From contig NZ_CP119809.1 in the NCBI RefSeq assembly GCF_029338395.1, positions 3,038,001-3,102,000 of the forward strand: 64,000 bases of DNA, in the 5' to 3' direction. The notes under the pieces are model-generated. The model was not told the origin of the DNA, did no database searches, and saw only the letters and a program-made list of their open reading frames with translations. The translations under genes were made by a program, and so were the position numbers. This document shows, piece by piece, positions 10,552 through 26,055 of this stretch. Each line of letters opens with the position of its first letter. Position 1 is the stretch's first letter. This DNA is from Halorussus caseinilyticus. Lineage in GTDB: Archaea > Halobacteriota > Halobacteria > Halobacteriales > Haladaptataceae.

Positions 10552-10573
10552 TTCCAGTTGAAACGAAGGGGTT
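10552..10573 (+). promoter_or_regulatory. ORB-like element (distal, left of origin)
   Basis: TTCCAGTTGAAACGAAGGGG fits the pattern TTCCANNNGAAAC followed by a G-string. It lies about 10 kb from the origin core. Orc1/Cdc6 binding is inferred from similarity to the boxes at 20584-20604, 20777-20797 and 21380-21401. Confidence 0.6.
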
Positions 10574-15289: not shown

Positions 15290-15311
15290 TTCCAGACGAA
15301 ACGGAGGGGTT
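15290..15311 (+). promoter_or_regulatory. ORB-like element (distal, left of origin)
   Basis: TTCCAGACGAAACGGAGGGG matches the origin boxes fully over the GAAACGGAGGGG half. It lies in an intergenic spacer about 5.3 kb from the origin core. Confidence 0.65.
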
Positions 15312-18156: not shown

Positions 18157-18891
18157 TCAGCGCTCGGTCGAGTCCCACGCGTCGGGAACCTCGATGACGT
18201 ACTTGCCGTCCTCCTTCAGCGAGATGATGTACTCCTCGCGCTCGTACAGTTCCATCAGGTTGAGTTCGTACTGGCCGGGTTCGACGATTCTGATGCTCTC
18301 GAACTGGCTGTTGAGTTCCTCGCGGAGTTCCTTCAGACCGGGGTTCTCGTCGTCGGGCGACTCTACGACTTCGGCTTCCGAATCCGAGTCGGCGGTGGGT
18401 CCGGCCACTTCCTCCGGCGGTTCGTCCGGAAGTTCCGACTCGTCGACTACGTTGCGCCGAGCGTTCGCCTGCGCAGAGTCCTCGGCGACCGGAGCAGAAT
18501 CGTCGGTGACCGGAGAAGAGTCTTGGCCGTCGGTAGCCGGAGCGGAGTCGTCGGTGGCCGAGGCAGGACTCGCGTCGGCGTCGTCGCGCGTACTCACCCA
18601 GTCACGGACCGTCGCCGCCGCTCTGTTCACTGCACTGCCGCCGTCGTCGCCCCCCGTTTCGGGTGCGGTGGCGATTTCGGATGCGTCGCCGACAGTGGAC
18701 CCGGTATTCTCGGGCGTCTTCTTCCGTGCGGTCGCGGCAGACGCTCTCCCGCCGGTTTCACCAGCGTTCCCATCTGCGGCTCCCGCGGGGTCGAACTGGA
18801 ACTTGTTCCCGCCACAGTCGGGACAGCCCGAGAGCATCTCCTTGGAACCGTCCTCGAACGACCGGCCGCAGGTGGTACACTGGTGGGGCAT
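18157..18891 (-). CDS. arvC: OapC/ArvC family zinc-ribbon protein
   Basis: The 244-residue protein starts MPHQCTTCGRSF and has Cys 5, 8, 23 and 26 forming a zinc ribbon. A long acidic, Ser/Asp-rich linker fills about residues 45-180. The conserved C-terminal domain ends with YELNLMELYEREEYIISLKE and DGKYVIEVPDAW. It is the third gene of the operon, and its ATG overlaps the stop of arvB (TAATG). OapC was named as an origin-associated protein. The operon has also been linked to extracellular vesicle formation through the GTPase gene. Confidence 0.85.
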   Translation of the reverse strand: MPHQCTTCGRSFEDGSKEMLSGCPDCGGNKFQFDPAGAADGNAGETGGRASAATARKKTPENTGSTVGDASEIATAPETGGDDGGSAVNRAAATVRDWVSTRDDADASPASATDDSAPATDGQDSSPVTDDSAPVAEDSAQANARRNVVDESELPDEPPEEVAGPTADSDSEAEVVESPDDENPGLKELREELNSQFESIRIVEPGQYELNLMELYEREEYIISLKEDGKYVIEVPDAWDSTER

Positions 18892-19280
18892 TATTTACGT
18901 GAGACGAGGGCGCTGATGAGGTTCTCGTCCTTGTGGAGCGTCTCGATTTGGTTCGCCGGGCCGATGACCGTAAGCTTGTGCGTGGACTCCTTGCCCATCA
19001 ACCGGTCGAGGAAGCTCTGGTCTGCAGTTTCGGACCGGGGGTAAGTCTCTATCTCGATACCGTTGAACTCGTCGGGACTGATTTCGGTCATCGTCACCTC
19101 GATGAGTTTGCTCTCCTCGTCCGGCGAGAGACCGGTTTCGAGGATGACGATATTGCCGTCGCGAACCCCGTCGAGAATCATCCGAATCTTCTCCATCGAC
19201 GCCATCTCCGCCATGCGGTCGGCACCGATGAGGTCGATTTGGACGCCGTCGTTCGGGCCATCCCCTGTCACTTCCGGCAT
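18891..19280 (-). CDS. arvB: OapB/ArvB family protein (DUF2073)
   Basis: The 129-residue protein opens with an acidic tail and then GVQIDLIGADRMAEMASMEK, followed by RDGNIVILETGLSPDEESKL, the DUF2073 signature. It has no membrane segment. It begins 4 bases after the stop of arvA and overlaps arvC by one base, so the three are a tight operon. The molecular function is not established; it presumably acts with the GTPase. Confidence 0.88.
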   Translation of the reverse strand: MPEVTGDGPNDGVQIDLIGADRMAEMASMEKIRMILDGVRDGNIVILETGLSPDEESKLIEVTMTEISPDEFNGIEIETYPRSETADQSFLDRLMGKESTHKLTVIGPANQIETLHKDENLISALVSRK

Positions 19281-19284
19281 GGTA

Positions 19285-19926
19285 TCACCCGAAGTACTCC
19301 GCGATTTTGTCGTACACTTCGTCCATGTTCTCGCCTTCGAGTGCCGAGAGCGGGATGGTCTCGTGCTGTGGGAAGGCGTTTCGGATGCGCTGGACGCTCG
19401 AATCTTCGAGGTCGGTCTTGTTGGCGAGGATGAGGACGGGGAGGTCTTGGCTCTCGATGATACCGATGAGCATCGTGTTGACCTGCGTGAACGGGTCAGT
19501 CGTGCTGTCGAGAACGTAGATTACGCCGTCTACGTCCTCCCGGAGCCAGTGCATCGCCTCCGCGACGCCTTCGGTCGCTTCGCGGGAGCGCCGCACGGCG
19601 TCCTCTTTGTCCATGTCGTGGTCGATGAACTCCTCGTAATCGACTTTGGTCGTGACGCCCGGCGTGTCCACGATGTCGATTGACACCGTCTTGCCGTCGC
19701 GCTCGATTTCGACGTTCTCTTTTCGACGTGCCCGACGGGTTTCGTGTGGAATGTGACTCTCCGGGCCGACTGCGTCGCCGGTCCAGTCGCGGGCGATACG
19801 ATTAGCGAGAGTCGTCTTTCCGGCATTTGGCGGGCCGTAGATACCGATACGCTTCGGCTCCTGCGCGGAGAAGAGCTTGTCCGTAACGCGGGAAATGCTG
19901 TCTTTCAGGTCCGTAAACAATCCCAT
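19285..19926 (-). CDS. arvA: Era-like GTPase OapA/ArvA (archaeal vesiculating GTPase)
   Basis: The start is ATG 19926, preceded by GGAGG about 6 bases upstream; an upstream in-frame GTG (19968) lacks this. The 213-residue protein has the G1 loop GPPNAGKT (31-38), G3 DTPG (87-90) and G4 NKTD (169-172). A basic segment HETRRARRKEN follows the switch I region. It belongs to the OapA/ArvA family, known from the conserved position next to oriC1. In Haloferax it is reported to drive extracellular vesicle formation. It leads the arvA-arvB-arvC operon, transcribed away from the origin. Confidence 0.88.
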   Translation of the reverse strand: MGLFTDLKDSISRVTDKLFSAQEPKRIGIYGPPNAGKTTLANRIARDWTGDAVGPESHIPHETRRARRKENVEIERDGKTVSIDIVDTPGVTTKVDYEEFIDHDMDKEDAVRRSREATEGVAEAMHWLREDVDGVIYVLDSTTDPFTQVNTMLIGIIESQDLPVLILANKTDLEDSSVQRIRNAFPQHETIPLSALEGENMDEVYDKIAEYFG

Positions 19927-20335
19927 CCTTTCCTCCCAGACCCCACTATCGGCGAGTGAAACCGTCACGGGGGCTGTTGCGCGAATAACTATATCCTACC
20001 TACTTAAACCTATGTCAGACACGACTCGGGAAAAATGACTTATTTTCTTTTATGAAACAAAATCATTTCACGACACGAGTTCGCTTGGATTCTCGACTTT
20101 CGGCCGGAGCGAGAAGATAGCGACCGATTAGAGAACGGGCGTAATTGTAGGAATAATGAAATAGGTGCGGTGTTGAGCGATTGAGGCGGCGTCAGACGAT
20201 TGTGCAGGGTCAGGCTGGTCGTGGTCGTAGAGAGCAAAGAGGACCGTGGACGGAGCGTTTCGAGTCGAACCGGAGCAAAGGGAAGAATCAAAAGTGAGGG
20301 GTAGTAGAGACGTATCGGACGAGTAACGGGACTGA

Positions 20336-20357
20336 TTCCAGTTGAAACAGGGGGGTG
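20336..20357 (+). promoter_or_regulatory. ORB in oriC1 (left, outer)
   Basis: TTCCAGTTGAAACAGGGGGG is a direct-orientation box about 250 bases left of the inverted core box. The G-string is intact. Confidence 0.75.
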
Positions 20358-20454
20358 TATTCTCTCGAAGGCGGATAGGAACTGGCCGACGACTGGACGA
20401 AGACGGTACCGAGACGGTCGAAATCTGGAAAGGAAGGACGAGTCGAAAACAGAT

Positions 20455-20506
20455 GTCGGAAAGTAGAGTCGGAAGGTAGGGTCGGAAGGTAGAGTCGAAC
20501 AGTGAG
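20455..20506 (+). repeat. 13-bp tandem iteron-like array in oriC1
   Basis: Three consecutive 13-mers of the form GTCGGAA(A/G)GTAG(A/G) begin at about 20455, 20468 and 20481. A degenerate fourth, GTCGAACAGTGAG, starts at 20494. The array is purine-rich and lies 75 bases left of the inverted ORB. Confidence 0.75.
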
Positions 20507-20579
20507 CGAGAGGATAGTAGAATCGTAGACGATGGGGACTCGTAGACGACAGTAGACGTGTCAGTTGCTCGTTCCCCCT

Positions 20580-20604
20580 CCCCCACCCCTTCGTTTCGGG
20601 TGGA
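20580..20604 (-). promoter_or_regulatory. Inverted ORB, left arm of origin core
   Basis: Read on the minus strand this is CTCCACCCGAAACGAAGGGG followed by TGGGG. It is the exact inverse complement of 20777-20801 over 25 bases. Confidence 0.85.
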
Positions 20605-20649
20605 GAATGTGGAGAAGGACCCCCCGGTGGGTGGCGGAGGTTGTTTCCG

Positions 20650-20740
20650 CGGGAAAATAACCGCTCAATAACCAAATATACTGTATTTGGCTAGTTTGCG
20701 GATACCGTTTCTTCTCTGCCGTAATAAATCTTTCCAGTAT
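20650..20740. other. AT-rich DNA unwinding element
   Basis: Between the inverted ORBs the sequence becomes AT-rich (for example AAAATAACCGCTCAATAACC and CCGTAATAAATC). It includes the small hairpin CCAAATA-TACTG-TATTTGG at 20672-20690. It is the most easily melted stretch between the two core boxes. Confidence 0.7.
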
Positions 20741-20776
20741 CTAGGCACCCCCCACCCACCCCACCACCTTCTCACG

Positions 20777-20801
20777 CTCCACCCGAAACGAAGGGGTGGG
20801 G
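20777..20801 (+). promoter_or_regulatory. ORB, right arm of origin core
   Basis: CTCCACCCGAAACGAAGGGG plus TGGGG, the mirror of 20580-20604. The shared 25 bases extend beyond the minimal ORB into a long G-string. Confidence 0.85.
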
Positions 20802-21042
20802 GAGGTCCCCTTCCGTTCCATCCCTTCATCCTACCACCCCTCGTCCGACCTCCGGCTCACTTCACTCCGTCCTACTCGTGTCACAATTTGACTTGTGCCC
20901 GTCGTGAACAATCAACGCGGGATGTTCGATTCAAACTCCGGATAACTTCGTACGATTTCGACCGGCTTTCGAACGGCCTCACACCACACCATACTCGGCG
21001 ACTCGACACGAAATGCCGCCGTCTCTCGTCTCGAAAGACTCG

Positions 21043-21064
21043 TTCCACGTGAAACGACGAGGGA
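21043..21064 (+). promoter_or_regulatory. ORB-like element with weak G-string
   Basis: TTCCACGTGAAACGACGAGG keeps the dyad core but its G-string is interrupted. Confidence 0.5.
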
Positions 21065-21379
21065 ACCGATGATACAGAACGACAAAGCGAGTAGAACGAC
21101 AGACGATGCAGGTGACGAGGTATCACAAAGAACTCGGAAATCGCCGAACTGGAGATTGCCGATTTAGAGTATTCCGACACTATTCGGCTTCTACTCCCCG
21201 TTTCTGGCCTTTCAAAACCTCTCGGTATTTTGCCCAAATCGACCGAAAGAAGAAAGAGTTTAATACCCTGCTGGACCTTTGGTTCTTCTGCATCAACTGG
21301 ACGCGCCCGTCGCTTCTCGGATTCGGCATCCCGTCGCTTTCGGTCGGTTCTGCCGAAATCTGCTCGCGCGTCGCGCGTC

Positions 21380-21401
21380 TTCCACCTGAAACGGAGGGGT
21401 C
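21380..21401 (+). promoter_or_regulatory. ORB immediately upstream of orc1/cdc6
   Basis: TTCCACCTGAAACGGAGGGG ends about 13 bases before the orc1 ATG. A bound initiator would cover the transcription or translation start, which suggests autoregulation. Confidence 0.75.
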
Positions 21402-21412
21402 GGAACGAACGC

Positions 21413-22903
21413 ATGACAGACGAAAACACCCAACCGACGGACGACGCGGTCGATGTCAGCCCCGACCGTAGCTTCGACAACGTCGATTTGGACGACGTGG
21501 TCTTCGACGACGAGGGCGACGACCAAGGGCTATTCGACGACCTGCTGTCCGGCGAACCGATATTCGAGAACAAGGAGGTCCTGCGGCCGTCGTACACGCC
21601 ACACGAACTCCCACACCGGAAGGACCAAATCAACAACATGGCGACGATTCTGGTCGCCGCGCTTCGGGGCGAGACGCCCTCGAACATCCTCATCTACGGC
21701 AAGACCGGGACTGGCAAGACTGCCAGCGCGAAGTTCGTCAGCAAAGAACTCGAAAGCACGTCCCAGAAGTACGACGTTCCCTGCAACGTTGAGTACATCA
21801 ACTGCGAGGTCACCGACACGCAGTACCGCGTCCTCGCGCAACTCGCCAACAAGTTCATCGAGAACAACCAAGCGTTCGTCGAGGACCGCATCGCGGAACT
21901 CCAGACGCTCCGCGAGGAAGCGACCGCCGACCCTGCCAGACTCGGAGACACCGGGTTCGACTCCCCGGATGCTGTCGATGCGCGCATCGAGGACTTGCAG
22001 GACGACCGCGAAGAGATGGAGTCGGTCCCCATGACGGGGTGGCCGACCGACCGCGTGTACAACACGTTCTTCGAGGCCGTAGACTACGAGGAGCGGGTGG
22101 TCGTCATCATGCTGGACGAAATCGACAAACTGGTCGAGAAGTCGGGCGACGACACCCTCTACAACCTCTCGCGGATGAACTCCGAGTTGGAGAACTCGCG
22201 GGTCTCCATCATCGGCATCAGCAACGACCTGAAGTTCACCGACTTCCTCGACCCGCGCGTGAAGTCCTCGCTCGGGGAAGAGGAAATCGTCTTCCCGCCG
22301 TACGACGCCAACCAGTTGCGGGACATCCTCCAGCACCGCGCGGAAGTCGCGTTCAAGGCCGACGCGCTCAGCGACGATGTGATTCCGCTCTGCGCCGCGT
22401 TCGCCGCCCAAGAACACGGCGACGCCCGGCGCGCGCTAGACCTGCTTCGGACCGCGGGCGAACTCGCCGAACGCGACCAAGCCGAGGGCGTCAACGAGAA
22501 GCACGTCCGGAAGGCCCAAGAGAAGATAGAACTCGACCGCGTGGTCGAAGTCGTCCGCACCCTCCCCACCCAGTCGAAACTCGTTCTCTTCTCCATCATC
22601 TCGCTGGAGAAGAACGGCGTCCACAACGTCAACACCGGCGAGGTGTACAACATCTACAAGCGCCTCTGCGAGGAGATAGACGCCGACGTACTCACCCAGC
22701 GCCGCGTGACCGACCTCATCAGCGAACTCGACATGCTCGGCATCGTCAACGCGGTGGTCGTCAGCAAGGGTCGCTACGGCCGGACGAAGGAAATCAGCCT
22801 CTCGGTGCCGATAGACGAGACGGAGGCGGTCCTGATGTCCGACTCCCGACTCGGCGACATAGAGAGCGTCCAACCGTTCGTTCAGGCGCGATTCGACAAC
22901 TGA
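21413..22903 (+). CDS. orc1: Orc1/Cdc6 replication initiator
   Basis: The start is ATG 21413 (MTDENTQPTDD), since the longer upstream frame would run through the ORB at 21380. The 496-residue protein has an acidic N-terminus and an AAA+ core. Walker A is GKTGTGKT (96-103) and Walker B is LDEID (234-238). The sensor-2 region is GDARRALDLLRTAGELAE. A C-terminal winged helix (about 400-496) binds ORBs. A Glu/Arg-rich helical insertion fills about residues 155-205. The protein recognises the adjacent boxes and loads MCM. Direct adjacency to oriC1 fits the cognate initiator. Confidence 0.96.
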   Translation: MTDENTQPTDDAVDVSPDRSFDNVDLDDVVFDDEGDDQGLFDDLLSGEPIFENKEVLRPSYTPHELPHRKDQINNMATILVAALRGETPSNILIYGKTGTGKTASAKFVSKELESTSQKYDVPCNVEYINCEVTDTQYRVLAQLANKFIENNQAFVEDRIAELQTLREEATADPARLGDTGFDSPDAVDARIEDLQDDREEMESVPMTGWPTDRVYNTFFEAVDYEERVVVIMLDEIDKLVEKSGDDTLYNLSRMNSELENSRVSIIGISNDLKFTDFLDPRVKSSLGEEEIVFPPYDANQLRDILQHRAEVAFKADALSDDVIPLCAAFAAQEHGDARRALDLLRTAGELAERDQAEGVNEKHVRKAQEKIELDRVVEVVRTLPTQSKLVLFSIISLEKNGVHNVNTGEVYNIYKRLCEEIDADVLTQRRVTDLISELDMLGIVNAVVVSKGRYGRTKEISLSVPIDETEAVLMSDSRLGDIESVQPFVQARFDN

Positions 22904-23799: not shown

Positions 23800-23821
23800 T
23801 TCCACACGAAACGGTGGGGTT
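23800..23821 (+). promoter_or_regulatory. ORB-like element upstream of sec11
   Basis: TTCCACACGAAACGGTGGGG, a full match with an intact G-string, 65 bases before the sec11 start on the other strand. Confidence 0.65.
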
Positions 23822-23951
23822 CTGCACGAGAAGCGTCGGATTTCCCGACGGAAAGCGGGCCACCCGACGGAAACGACGAGGATACCCGTGAGACGTGACG
23901 AGACGACTCCACAGGAAACGCCGGGATACCTGTGAGAAGCGACAAGGAGTA

Positions 23952-23973
23952 CTCCACGCGAAACCACGGGGTT
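23952..23973 (+). promoter_or_regulatory. ORB-like element, end of the phased array
   Basis: CTCCACGCGAAACCACGGGG, the best-preserved member of the 45-bp-spaced series. Confidence 0.55.
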
Positions 23974-24357: not shown

Positions 24358-25998
24358 GTGCCGCTGGAGACCCCCGCTCGTATAGTTAGCGAACTCACCA
24401 GTCGGGGCTACAACGCAGACCGGGAAGCGGTGACGCTCCTCGCGGGGGCCGACGACCCGCGCGCCGCCCTCGACGTGGCCGTCGAACGCGCGCCCGACGA
24501 CGCGCTGAAACTCTCGGCGGACCACGTCGAGCGCGTCCTCACGGAGCGTTCGGCCGACGGCGACACCTCAGTTTCGACTGGAAGCGAAAGCGGAAATAAC
24601 CCGCAGGTGAAAGCGAGGCCTCCAACCGAAACGGAGGGGATGAGTGTCGAGGGGACGAACGACGAGGGAGTGGGCGACGGGGGAGTAGGCGACGAGAGAG
24701 ACGAGGATTCGGAAGGCGTCGGCGAGGACGTTATCGACGTGTCCCGTCCCGACGAGTCGGTCCGGGACCCGAATTTCGACGCCCGGTCGCTCGACGTGTC
24801 GGGCGACATCACCGGCGAGAGTACCGGAACCGGCGAGTACGAGGATTTCGTCTCCGTGTTTCGGGACCGGTTCGAACGCCTCTCCAAGCAGTTGCGCTCG
24901 CGGGTCAATGCCCGCCCGACCTCCGCGGTGCAGGCGATGCCCGGTGGCGGCGAAACCGCCATCGTCGGGATGATAAGCGACATTCGCTCGACCGCCAGCG
25001 GGCACTGGCTCATCGAGTTGGAAGACACGAGCGGAACCTACCCCTGCCTCGTGATGAAAGACCGCGAGTTCGCGGACCTCGTGGACGAACTCCTCTTCGA
25101 CGAGGTAATCGCCGTGGAGGGCACCCTCTCGGACGACAACGGCGACGGCGACGGCATCCTGTTCGTGGACTCGCTTTACTTCCCGGACGTGCCCCGGACC
25201 TACAAGCCCTCGACGGCCGACCGGCACGTGCAGGCCGCCCTCATCAGCGACGTTCACGTCGGTAGTCAGGAGTTCATGGCCGACGCGTGGTCGCGGTTCG
25301 CCGACTGGCTTTACACCGAGGAGGCCGAACGCGTCGAGTACCTCCTCGTCGCGGGCGACATGGTGGAGGGCGTCGGCGTCTACCCCGACCAAGACGAGGA
25401 ACTCGACATCGTGGACATCTACGACCAGTACGAGCAGTTCTCGGAGTATCTGAAGGAAGTGCCCGGCGACCTCGAAATCATCATGATTCCGGGCAACCAC
25501 GATGCGGTGCGCCTCGCCGAACCCCAACCGGGATTCGACGAGGAGTTGCGCGACATCATGTCGGTCCACGACGCCCGCATCTCGGGCAACCCCTCGACGG
25601 TCACCGTCGAGGGCGTGGACGTGTTGATGTACCACGGGGTCTCGTTGGACGAGGTTATCGCGGAACTCCCCGACGAGAAGGCCAACTACGACGAACCCCA
25701 CAAGGCGATGTATCAACTCCTGAAGAAGCGCCACGTCGCGCCGCAGTTCGGCGGCAAGACCCGACTCGCGCCCGAGGAGAAAGATTACCTCGTGATGGAC
25801 GACGTGCCGGACGTGTTCCACACTGGCCACGTCCACAAACTCGGGTGGGGCAAGTACCACAACGTTCTGGCGGTCAACTCCGGGTGCTGGCAGGAACAGA
25901 CCGCCTTCCAGAAGTCGGTGAACATCGACCCCGACGCCGGGTTCGCGCCCATCTTAGACCTCGACACTCTCGACATGACCGTCCGGCAGTTCAGCTAA
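24358..25998 (+). CDS. polB: DNA polymerase D small subunit (DP1)
   Basis: The 546-residue product starts at GTG 24358. It has an N-terminal helical domain (about 1-65), a long acidic Gly/Asp-rich linker, an OB-fold (about 195-280) and a calcineurin-like phosphoesterase domain. The latter keeps DVHVGSQEF (Asp 298), GDMVEG, GNHD (379-382), MYHGVSLDE and HTGHVHKLG. In PolD this subunit carries the Mre11-like 3'-5' proofreading nuclease. An ORB-like sequence lies within the linker coding region at 24620. Position beside oriC1 and orc1 is typical. Confidence 0.95.
   Translation: MPLETPARIVSELTSRGYNADREAVTLLAGADDPRAALDVAVERAPDDALKLSADHVERVLTERSADGDTSVSTGSESGNNPQVKARPPTETEGMSVEGTNDEGVGDGGVGDERDEDSEGVGEDVIDVSRPDESVRDPNFDARSLDVSGDITGESTGTGEYEDFVSVFRDRFERLSKQLRSRVNARPTSAVQAMPGGGETAIVGMISDIRSTASGHWLIELEDTSGTYPCLVMKDREFADLVDELLFDEVIAVEGTLSDDNGDGDGILFVDSLYFPDVPRTYKPSTADRHVQAALISDVHVGSQEFMADAWSRFADWLYTEEAERVEYLLVAGDMVEGVGVYPDQDEELDIVDIYDQYEQFSEYLKEVPGDLEIIMIPGNHDAVRLAEPQPGFDEELRDIMSVHDARISGNPSTVTVEGVDVLMYHGVSLDEVIAELPDEKANYDEPHKAMYQLLKKRHVAPQFGGKTRLAPEEKDYLVMDDVPDVFHTGHVHKLGWGKYHNVLAVNSGCWQEQTAFQKSVNIDPDAGFAPILDLDTLDMTVRQFS
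24620..24641 (+). promoter_or_regulatory. Intragenic ORB-like element in polB
   Basis: CTCCAACCGAAACGGAGGGG lies in the part of polB that encodes the variable acidic linker. It matches the origin boxes over GAAACGGAGGGG. Confidence 0.5.
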
Positions 25999-26033: not shown

Positions 26034-26055
26034 TTCCACTTGAAACGGAGGGGTG
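26034..26055 (+). promoter_or_regulatory. ORB-like element (distal, right of origin)
   Basis: TTCCACTTGAAACGGAGGGG lies between polB and the convergent GNAT-like gene, about 5.3 kb from the origin core. Confidence 0.65.

Follow-up and report, generated by a model that had tools for sequence, protein, structure and literature searches.

The closest described relative of the locus analysed here is the origin oriC1 of Haloarcula hispanica, which is impaired by loss of either ORB, requires its G-strings, and is enhanced by an inner G-rich repeat (PMC3936714). The G-string is a halophile-specific extension of the ORB (PMC3528665), and it has been attributed to contact with the AAA+ domain of Orc1 (PMC3528665, PMC3936714). 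At another origin of the same organism, oriC2, an ORB-rich region named oriC2D exerts negative control. The functions of the core ORB and of its G-string, as well as titration by extra ORBs (at oriC2), have in this way been published for relatives of the present organism (PMC3936714). Haloarchaea are often polyploid and carry several origins, which gives interest to the way in which they control initiation.

Here, we analyse the spacer between the small GTPase gene arvA/oapA (ArvA being the name used in PMC10927574) and the initiator gene orc1 within a 64-kb stretch of Halorussus caseinilyticus DNA (hereafter, the window), in which an earlier note had described a complete oriC1-type origin. 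Besides this origin, we report a set of ORBs outside the spacer, above all a pair lying inside the gene for the small subunit of PolD, which were absent from the earlier note. A search of the open-access literature yielded neither a description of ORBs within PolD nor any genome-wide haloarchaeal Orc1 map, and both the satellite archipelago around the origin and the PolD pair appear to be unreported.

Results

The origin spacer and its gene context

The position between arvA and orc1 that had been given for the origin is borne out, with the GTPase gene forming the upstream boundary (followed by OapB and OapC) and the initiator gene directly adjoining the spacer on the other side (Table 1). This initiator is an oriC1-type orc/cdc6 gene, with one orthologue per relative (77-97% identity in the first set of relatives). 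About a dozen further Orc/Cdc6 paralogues, one of which has an internal stop codon, are found on contigs C1-C5 of the genome. The cumulative skew of the 64-kb window reaches only a local maximum, at around 19-21 kb, and carries no information by itself.

Table 1. Features of the oriC1 region, in window coordinates.
Feature	Coordinates	Strand	Evidence or remark
Satellite ORB, 28 nt past the stop codon of a gene	10552..10571	+	Counterpart in congeners at ~-10 to -14.7 kb
Satellite ORB downstream of the stop codon of a ferredoxin-like gene	15290..15309	+	Counterpart at ~-6.5 kb in most congeners
OapC	18157-18891		PF09845; comes after OapB
OapB	18891-19280		PF09846; comes after arvA/oapA
arvA/oapA, small GTPase (ArvA/OapA), upstream boundary of the origin	19285..19926	-	MMR_HSR1 domain
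arvA-orc1 spacer	19927-21412		Between minus-strand small GTPase gene and plus-strand orc1
Extra direct ORB, left of core	20336..20355	+	ORB match; conserved in genus
Left core ORB with outward (left) extended G-string	20577..20605 (box 20586-20605)	-	Inverted repeat with 20777-20805, exact over 29 nt; conserved across 16 Halorussus spacers
Inner G-rich inverted repeat, left arm	20626..20637	+	GGTGGGTGGCGG; 11/12 match to right arm
AT-rich element, putative unwinding element	20657..20740	.	63% AT; ~20690-20735 conserved in genus
Inner G-rich inverted repeat, right arm	20749..20760	-	11/12 match to left arm
Right core ORB with outward (right) extended G-string	20777..20805 (box 20777-20796)	+	Exact 29-nt repeat; conserved in 16 Halorussus spacers
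Weak extra ORB	21043..21062	+	2 mismatches
Conserved block containing a TATA-like TTTAATA; putative promoter and transcript start of orc1	21246..21306	+	Near-invariant in 16 Halorussus spacers
ORB at -33 from the orc1 start codon	21380..21399	+	Same offset in nearly all Halorussus and Haladaptatus
orc1 (Orc1/Cdc6 initiator)	21413..22903	+	NF001625, 659.7 bits; Cdc6_lid and Cdc6_C domains
Satellite ORB between signal peptidase and PolD genes	23800..23819	+	ORB match
Weaker ORBs between signal peptidase and PolD genes	23907-23926, 23952-23971		3 mismatches
PolD small-subunit gene (DP1), carrier of the embedded ORB pair	24358..25998	+	NF003116, 969.6 bits, full length
Embedded pair, left ORB, in coding sequence	24564..24583	-	ORB match; codon-level selection
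Embedded pair, right ORB, in coding sequence, 56 nt from left	24620..24639	+	ORB match; codon-level selection
Satellite ORB just past the PolD small-subunit stop, convergent spacer	26034..26053	+	24-91 nt after the stop in 15/16 Halorussus

The core of the spacer is a pair of ORBs, each continued outward by GGGGTGGGGGAGG, whose arms form an inverted repeat that is exact over 29 nt and stretches to 38 nt at 89% (20577-20614 / 20768-20805). An exact inverted repeat of this length, over ~200 nt, is far beyond chance. The exact inverse orientation of the two ORBs, which had been claimed over 25 bases, holds over these 29 nt, and the 25-nt ranges themselves were off by one (20581-20605 is the exact reverse complement of 20777-20801, and 20580-20604 is not). 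The description of the core as a mirror image has to be replaced, the structure being an inverted repeat; the reversed ORB consensus has no match in the window at up to four mismatches.

Between the two core ORBs lies the AT-rich element that had been recognised there, with an AT content well above the window mean of 36% and within the top 0.16% of the window's 84-mers. It is accompanied by an inner G-rich inverted repeat, which is found here and is not a requirement in every species. The further direct ORBs that had been pointed out in the spacer are also present, one of them in a weaker form. When the 16 Halorussus spacers are compared, the footprint shows islands of conservation at the end with the arvA promoter, at the extra ORB on the left, at the two core ORBs, in a portion of the AT-rich element, in a near-invariant block upstream of orc1 and at the -33 ORB, and the remaining sequence is poorly conserved. 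The near-invariant block would hold the orc1 promoter.

Additionally, this block of ~60 nt is followed by a well-conserved stretch, and the conserved region as a whole (21246-21366) exceeds what a core promoter would need, possibly including a conserved 5' leader. We also observed that the left flank of the core (20236-20575) is 68% purine on the plus strand, within the top 0.1% of the window, and that the right flank (20807-21006) is pyrimidine-rich, a tendency which is common to many, not all, congeners.

The same core is present in 87 of 90 loci, the remaining three contigs holding just 0.1-1.3 kb upstream of orc1, and the spacing of the core pair ranges from 178 to 424 nt across loci. In the consensus built by position from the 87 loci, the extension TGGGGG after GGGG is found only in the two core box classes; the PolD boxes and those located at -33, ~-6 kb, ~-11 kb and ~+4.5 kb end at GGGGT. 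The core pair is therefore distinct, by its extended G-string, from every other ORB around the origin, in line with the published requirement for the G-string (PMC3936714). It had been suggested from the shared G-string that selection acts on more than initiator contact, an argument which fails because the G-string is a known part of the initiator site, namely the halophile ORB extension, and is essential for oriC1 (PMC3528665, PMC3936714).

Based on the anatomy, the gene context and the conservation in some 90 relatives, the reading as an oriC1-type origin is well supported, and we have hardly any doubt that the spacer is a chromosomal replication origin, a haloarchaeal oriC1. Its anatomy is ordinary, since this architecture has already been published as haloarchaeal oriC1 and mutationally tested in Haloarcula hispanica; its activity in the present strain is a prediction.

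An archipelago of ORBs around oriC1

The strict ORB pattern, TCCANNNGAAACNNNGGGG, has 13 matches in the 4.39-Mb genome, 10 of them in a 15.5-kb stretch around oriC1; the same genome contains no match to the reversed pattern. This clustering is found throughout the 14 fully listed Halorussus genomes, where 103 of the 135 exact matches fall between -15 and +10 kb from orc1 (per-genome binomial P of 2e-11 to 1e-20) and a few sites lie 90-150 kb from oriC1. The positions are shared between species, with sites at ~-10 to -14.7 kb, at ~-6.5 kb, at -0.9 to -1.7 kb, in the core and at -33, and downstream with a pair between ~+2.8 and +3.2 kb and a further site between +4.1 and +5.3 kb. Across 80 named loci, drawn from many genera, 462 ORBs were found at up to two mismatches, against none for the reversed consensus; 272 of them belong to the spacer and 84 to a second strong cluster at +2.5 to +5 kb. 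A chance origin of the matches was rejected, given that the reversed-pattern controls gave no match. The strict pattern is absent at the genome's other orc loci, and the boxes are therefore specific to the oriC1 initiator.

At a much greater distance (~148 kb from oriC1, positions 2910923-2910941 of contig C1), an ORB-like sequence, CTCCAGTCGAAACTGRGGGGT in most cases, lies in the coding frame of argD. Its codons CTC CAG TCG AAA are kept in 18/18 Halorussus and not in the outgroups, and the box may be either a distant ORB or a genus-level coincidence; its dismissal as plain coincidence, as one of the sites 90-150 kb off, has become uncertain with this codon identity in all 18 congeners. An exact ORB match is found just 5' of a CapA-like gene (2907166-2907184 of the same contig, ~152 kb from oriC1), and in several congeners, too, the vicinity of the argD box (a few kb) contains an exact match.

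An ORB pair inside the PolD small-subunit gene

The two ORBs embedded in the PolD small-subunit gene point outward, with the same polarity as the core pair, and sit in a linker that differs wildly in length and sequence from one species to another. Their box consensus is the same as that of the core except for the missing extended G-string, and the interior of the pair is not strongly AT-rich (39% vs 34% AT). Allowing up to four mismatches per box, the pair was found in 53 of 73 non-redundant genes from many haloarchaeal genera (control, 0), with a start-to-start spacing of 56 nt in 47 of these 53 loci and of 53, 68, 71 or 74 nt in the others, all of them in frame. The exact pattern of the pair is present in 53 of 145 genomes from the order, almost always as a single copy and almost always 62 nt in length, and its reversed control gave no match. 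Where polD is 12-60 kb away from orc1 (194 kb in one genome), the pair is still present or has kept at least one box; in a few lineages it is degenerate or missing, with one or both boxes lost.

The codon usage of the boxes is highly unusual for these GC-rich genes, in which codons ending in A and codons ending in T make up only 5-6% each. At the third positions of the box codons, T is found in 67/73 (4.7 expected), 63/70 (3.4) and 61/70 (4.2) of the sequences, and A in 67/73 (3.2 expected), 57/70 (3.8) and 68/73 (17.2), while the amino acid varies in most box columns (e.g. among S, T, V, A and P). The same bias is obtained with one sequence per genus (33 representatives, which are related, making P-values indicative only). 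When the 513 well-filled codon columns are ranked by their excess of A/T-ending codons, the top six are exactly the six box columns. Because the six strongest columns are all box columns, selection at the PolD boxes almost certainly acts on the DNA, which would give the pair a DNA-level function.

Discussion

The features described above can be combined into a working mechanism. Orc1, made next door, would bind both outward-pointing core ORBs, with its winged helix reading the TTCCA...GAAAC part of the box and its AAA+ domain reading the G-string, after which the AT-rich element between them would melt and MCM would be loaded. The extended halophile G-string probably marks the pair that fires. 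The satellites, on the other side, are most likely sites for this same Orc1 at which the DNA stays closed, and would hold the protein near the origin (as a reservoir or by titration), thus tuning the timing and frequency of core firing; the copy at -33 probably also damps orc1 expression. The account as a whole, with the core pair firing oriC1 and the satellites acting as a local reservoir or titrator of Orc1, seems to us evenly poised between right and wrong. The titration role of the satellites is proposed more tentatively, as a possibility falling a little short of even, for we infer both the binding of Orc1 and its function there.

We further propose, with the scales level, that the PolD gene doubles across haloarchaea as an origin control element, in which the 56-nt pair in the disordered linker would bind Orc1 and regulate oriC1 together with the satellite ORBs. 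The fixed spacing of 56 nt suggests a defined complex of two Orc1 molecules rather than loose titration. Three observations count against the whole account: this rigidity exceeds what simple titration would need, the pair has remained in polD where that gene has moved, which also fits a polD-linked role, and one or both boxes have been lost in a few lineages.

The main rival explanation, which we consider unlikely, takes the satellites and the PolD pair as operators, with Orc1 coupling the expression of orc1 and of the PolD small subunit to replication, either as a transcription factor or as a roadblock. The position of the -33 ORB downstream of the conserved putative orc1 promoter fits autoregulation, and the pair travels with polD on relocation of the gene; however, several satellites are found past stop codons or between convergent genes and not at promoters, on which ground we set promoter operators aside as a general account of these sites, and the PolD pair lies within a gene, at a variable distance from its start. 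It is improbable that the satellites are secondary sites of MCM loading and initiation, forming an initiation zone around oriC1. The PolD pair shares the outward polarity of the core pair, but it has neither the AT-rich interior nor the extended G-string, which is essential at the H. hispanica core (PMC3936714).

A role of the archipelago in organising or segregating the origin region, in the manner of a centromere made of scattered sites, appears more improbable still. Bacterial parS sites concentrate near the origin, and the ~ten sites gathered close to oriC1, with a few others 90-150 kb away, resemble them in this respect; nevertheless, no partition protein is tied to the sites, and Orc1 is the only plausible known reader. 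As for the spacer itself, it could be thought of as a dormant or decayed origin, given the dozen or so other Orc/Cdc6 paralogues of the genome and the existence of dormant origins among haloarchaea (PMC4595724), but all its elements are intact and conserved across the genus, and we regard this as very improbable. Finally, the idea that the PolD pair is a mere conserved peptide motif with codons that happen to resemble an ORB can practically be discarded, despite its constant reading frame and some recurring residues (VSTG, PxETKG), as rare codons ending in A or T are retained even though the amino acid differs, in the six most extreme columns of all, and the codon test thereby rejects a purely protein-level account.

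Returning to the origin-control account, the PolD pair offers a concrete cis element that synonymous recoding could eliminate while leaving the protein unchanged, and it is present in tractable genera (Haloarcula and some Haloferax). The pair is also a clear case of DNA-level information laid over a coding sequence, and origin maps limited to intergenic spacers miss such likely initiator sites.

Among the known systems, the spacer belongs to the same class as the orc/cdc6-adjacent origins surveyed in 15 haloarchaeal genomes, with which it shares the ORB carrying the halophile G-string; that survey covered intergenic orc flanks only, coding-sequence sites being outside its scope (PMC3528665). 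With oriC1-cdc6A of Haloarcula hispanica, it has in common the two inverted G-string ORBs around an AT-rich element, the inner G-rich repeat and the adjacent oriC1-type orc/cdc6 gene; the work on that origin deals with the spacer only, and ORBs in PolD and wider satellites are unmentioned there (PMC3936714). The satellites are closest to oriC2D of the same organism in having extra initiator boxes outside the minimal origin, for which initiator titration has been proposed, but oriC2D packs 11 ORBs into 722 bp, forming a dense intergenic cluster that serves another initiator (PMC3936714), whereas the oriC1 sites described here are scattered over ~15 kb. Additional ORBs outside the minimal origin were found in our case and a dense intergenic cluster next to orc was not; as the sites are scattered and partly in coding sequence, we therefore do not file them as a member of oriC2D. 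A broader parallel can be drawn with the datA-type titration sites of bacterial DnaA, which are likewise clusters of initiator boxes outside the origin that tune initiation; initiator and boxes are unrelated, and the likeness is an analogy of working and not one of membership.
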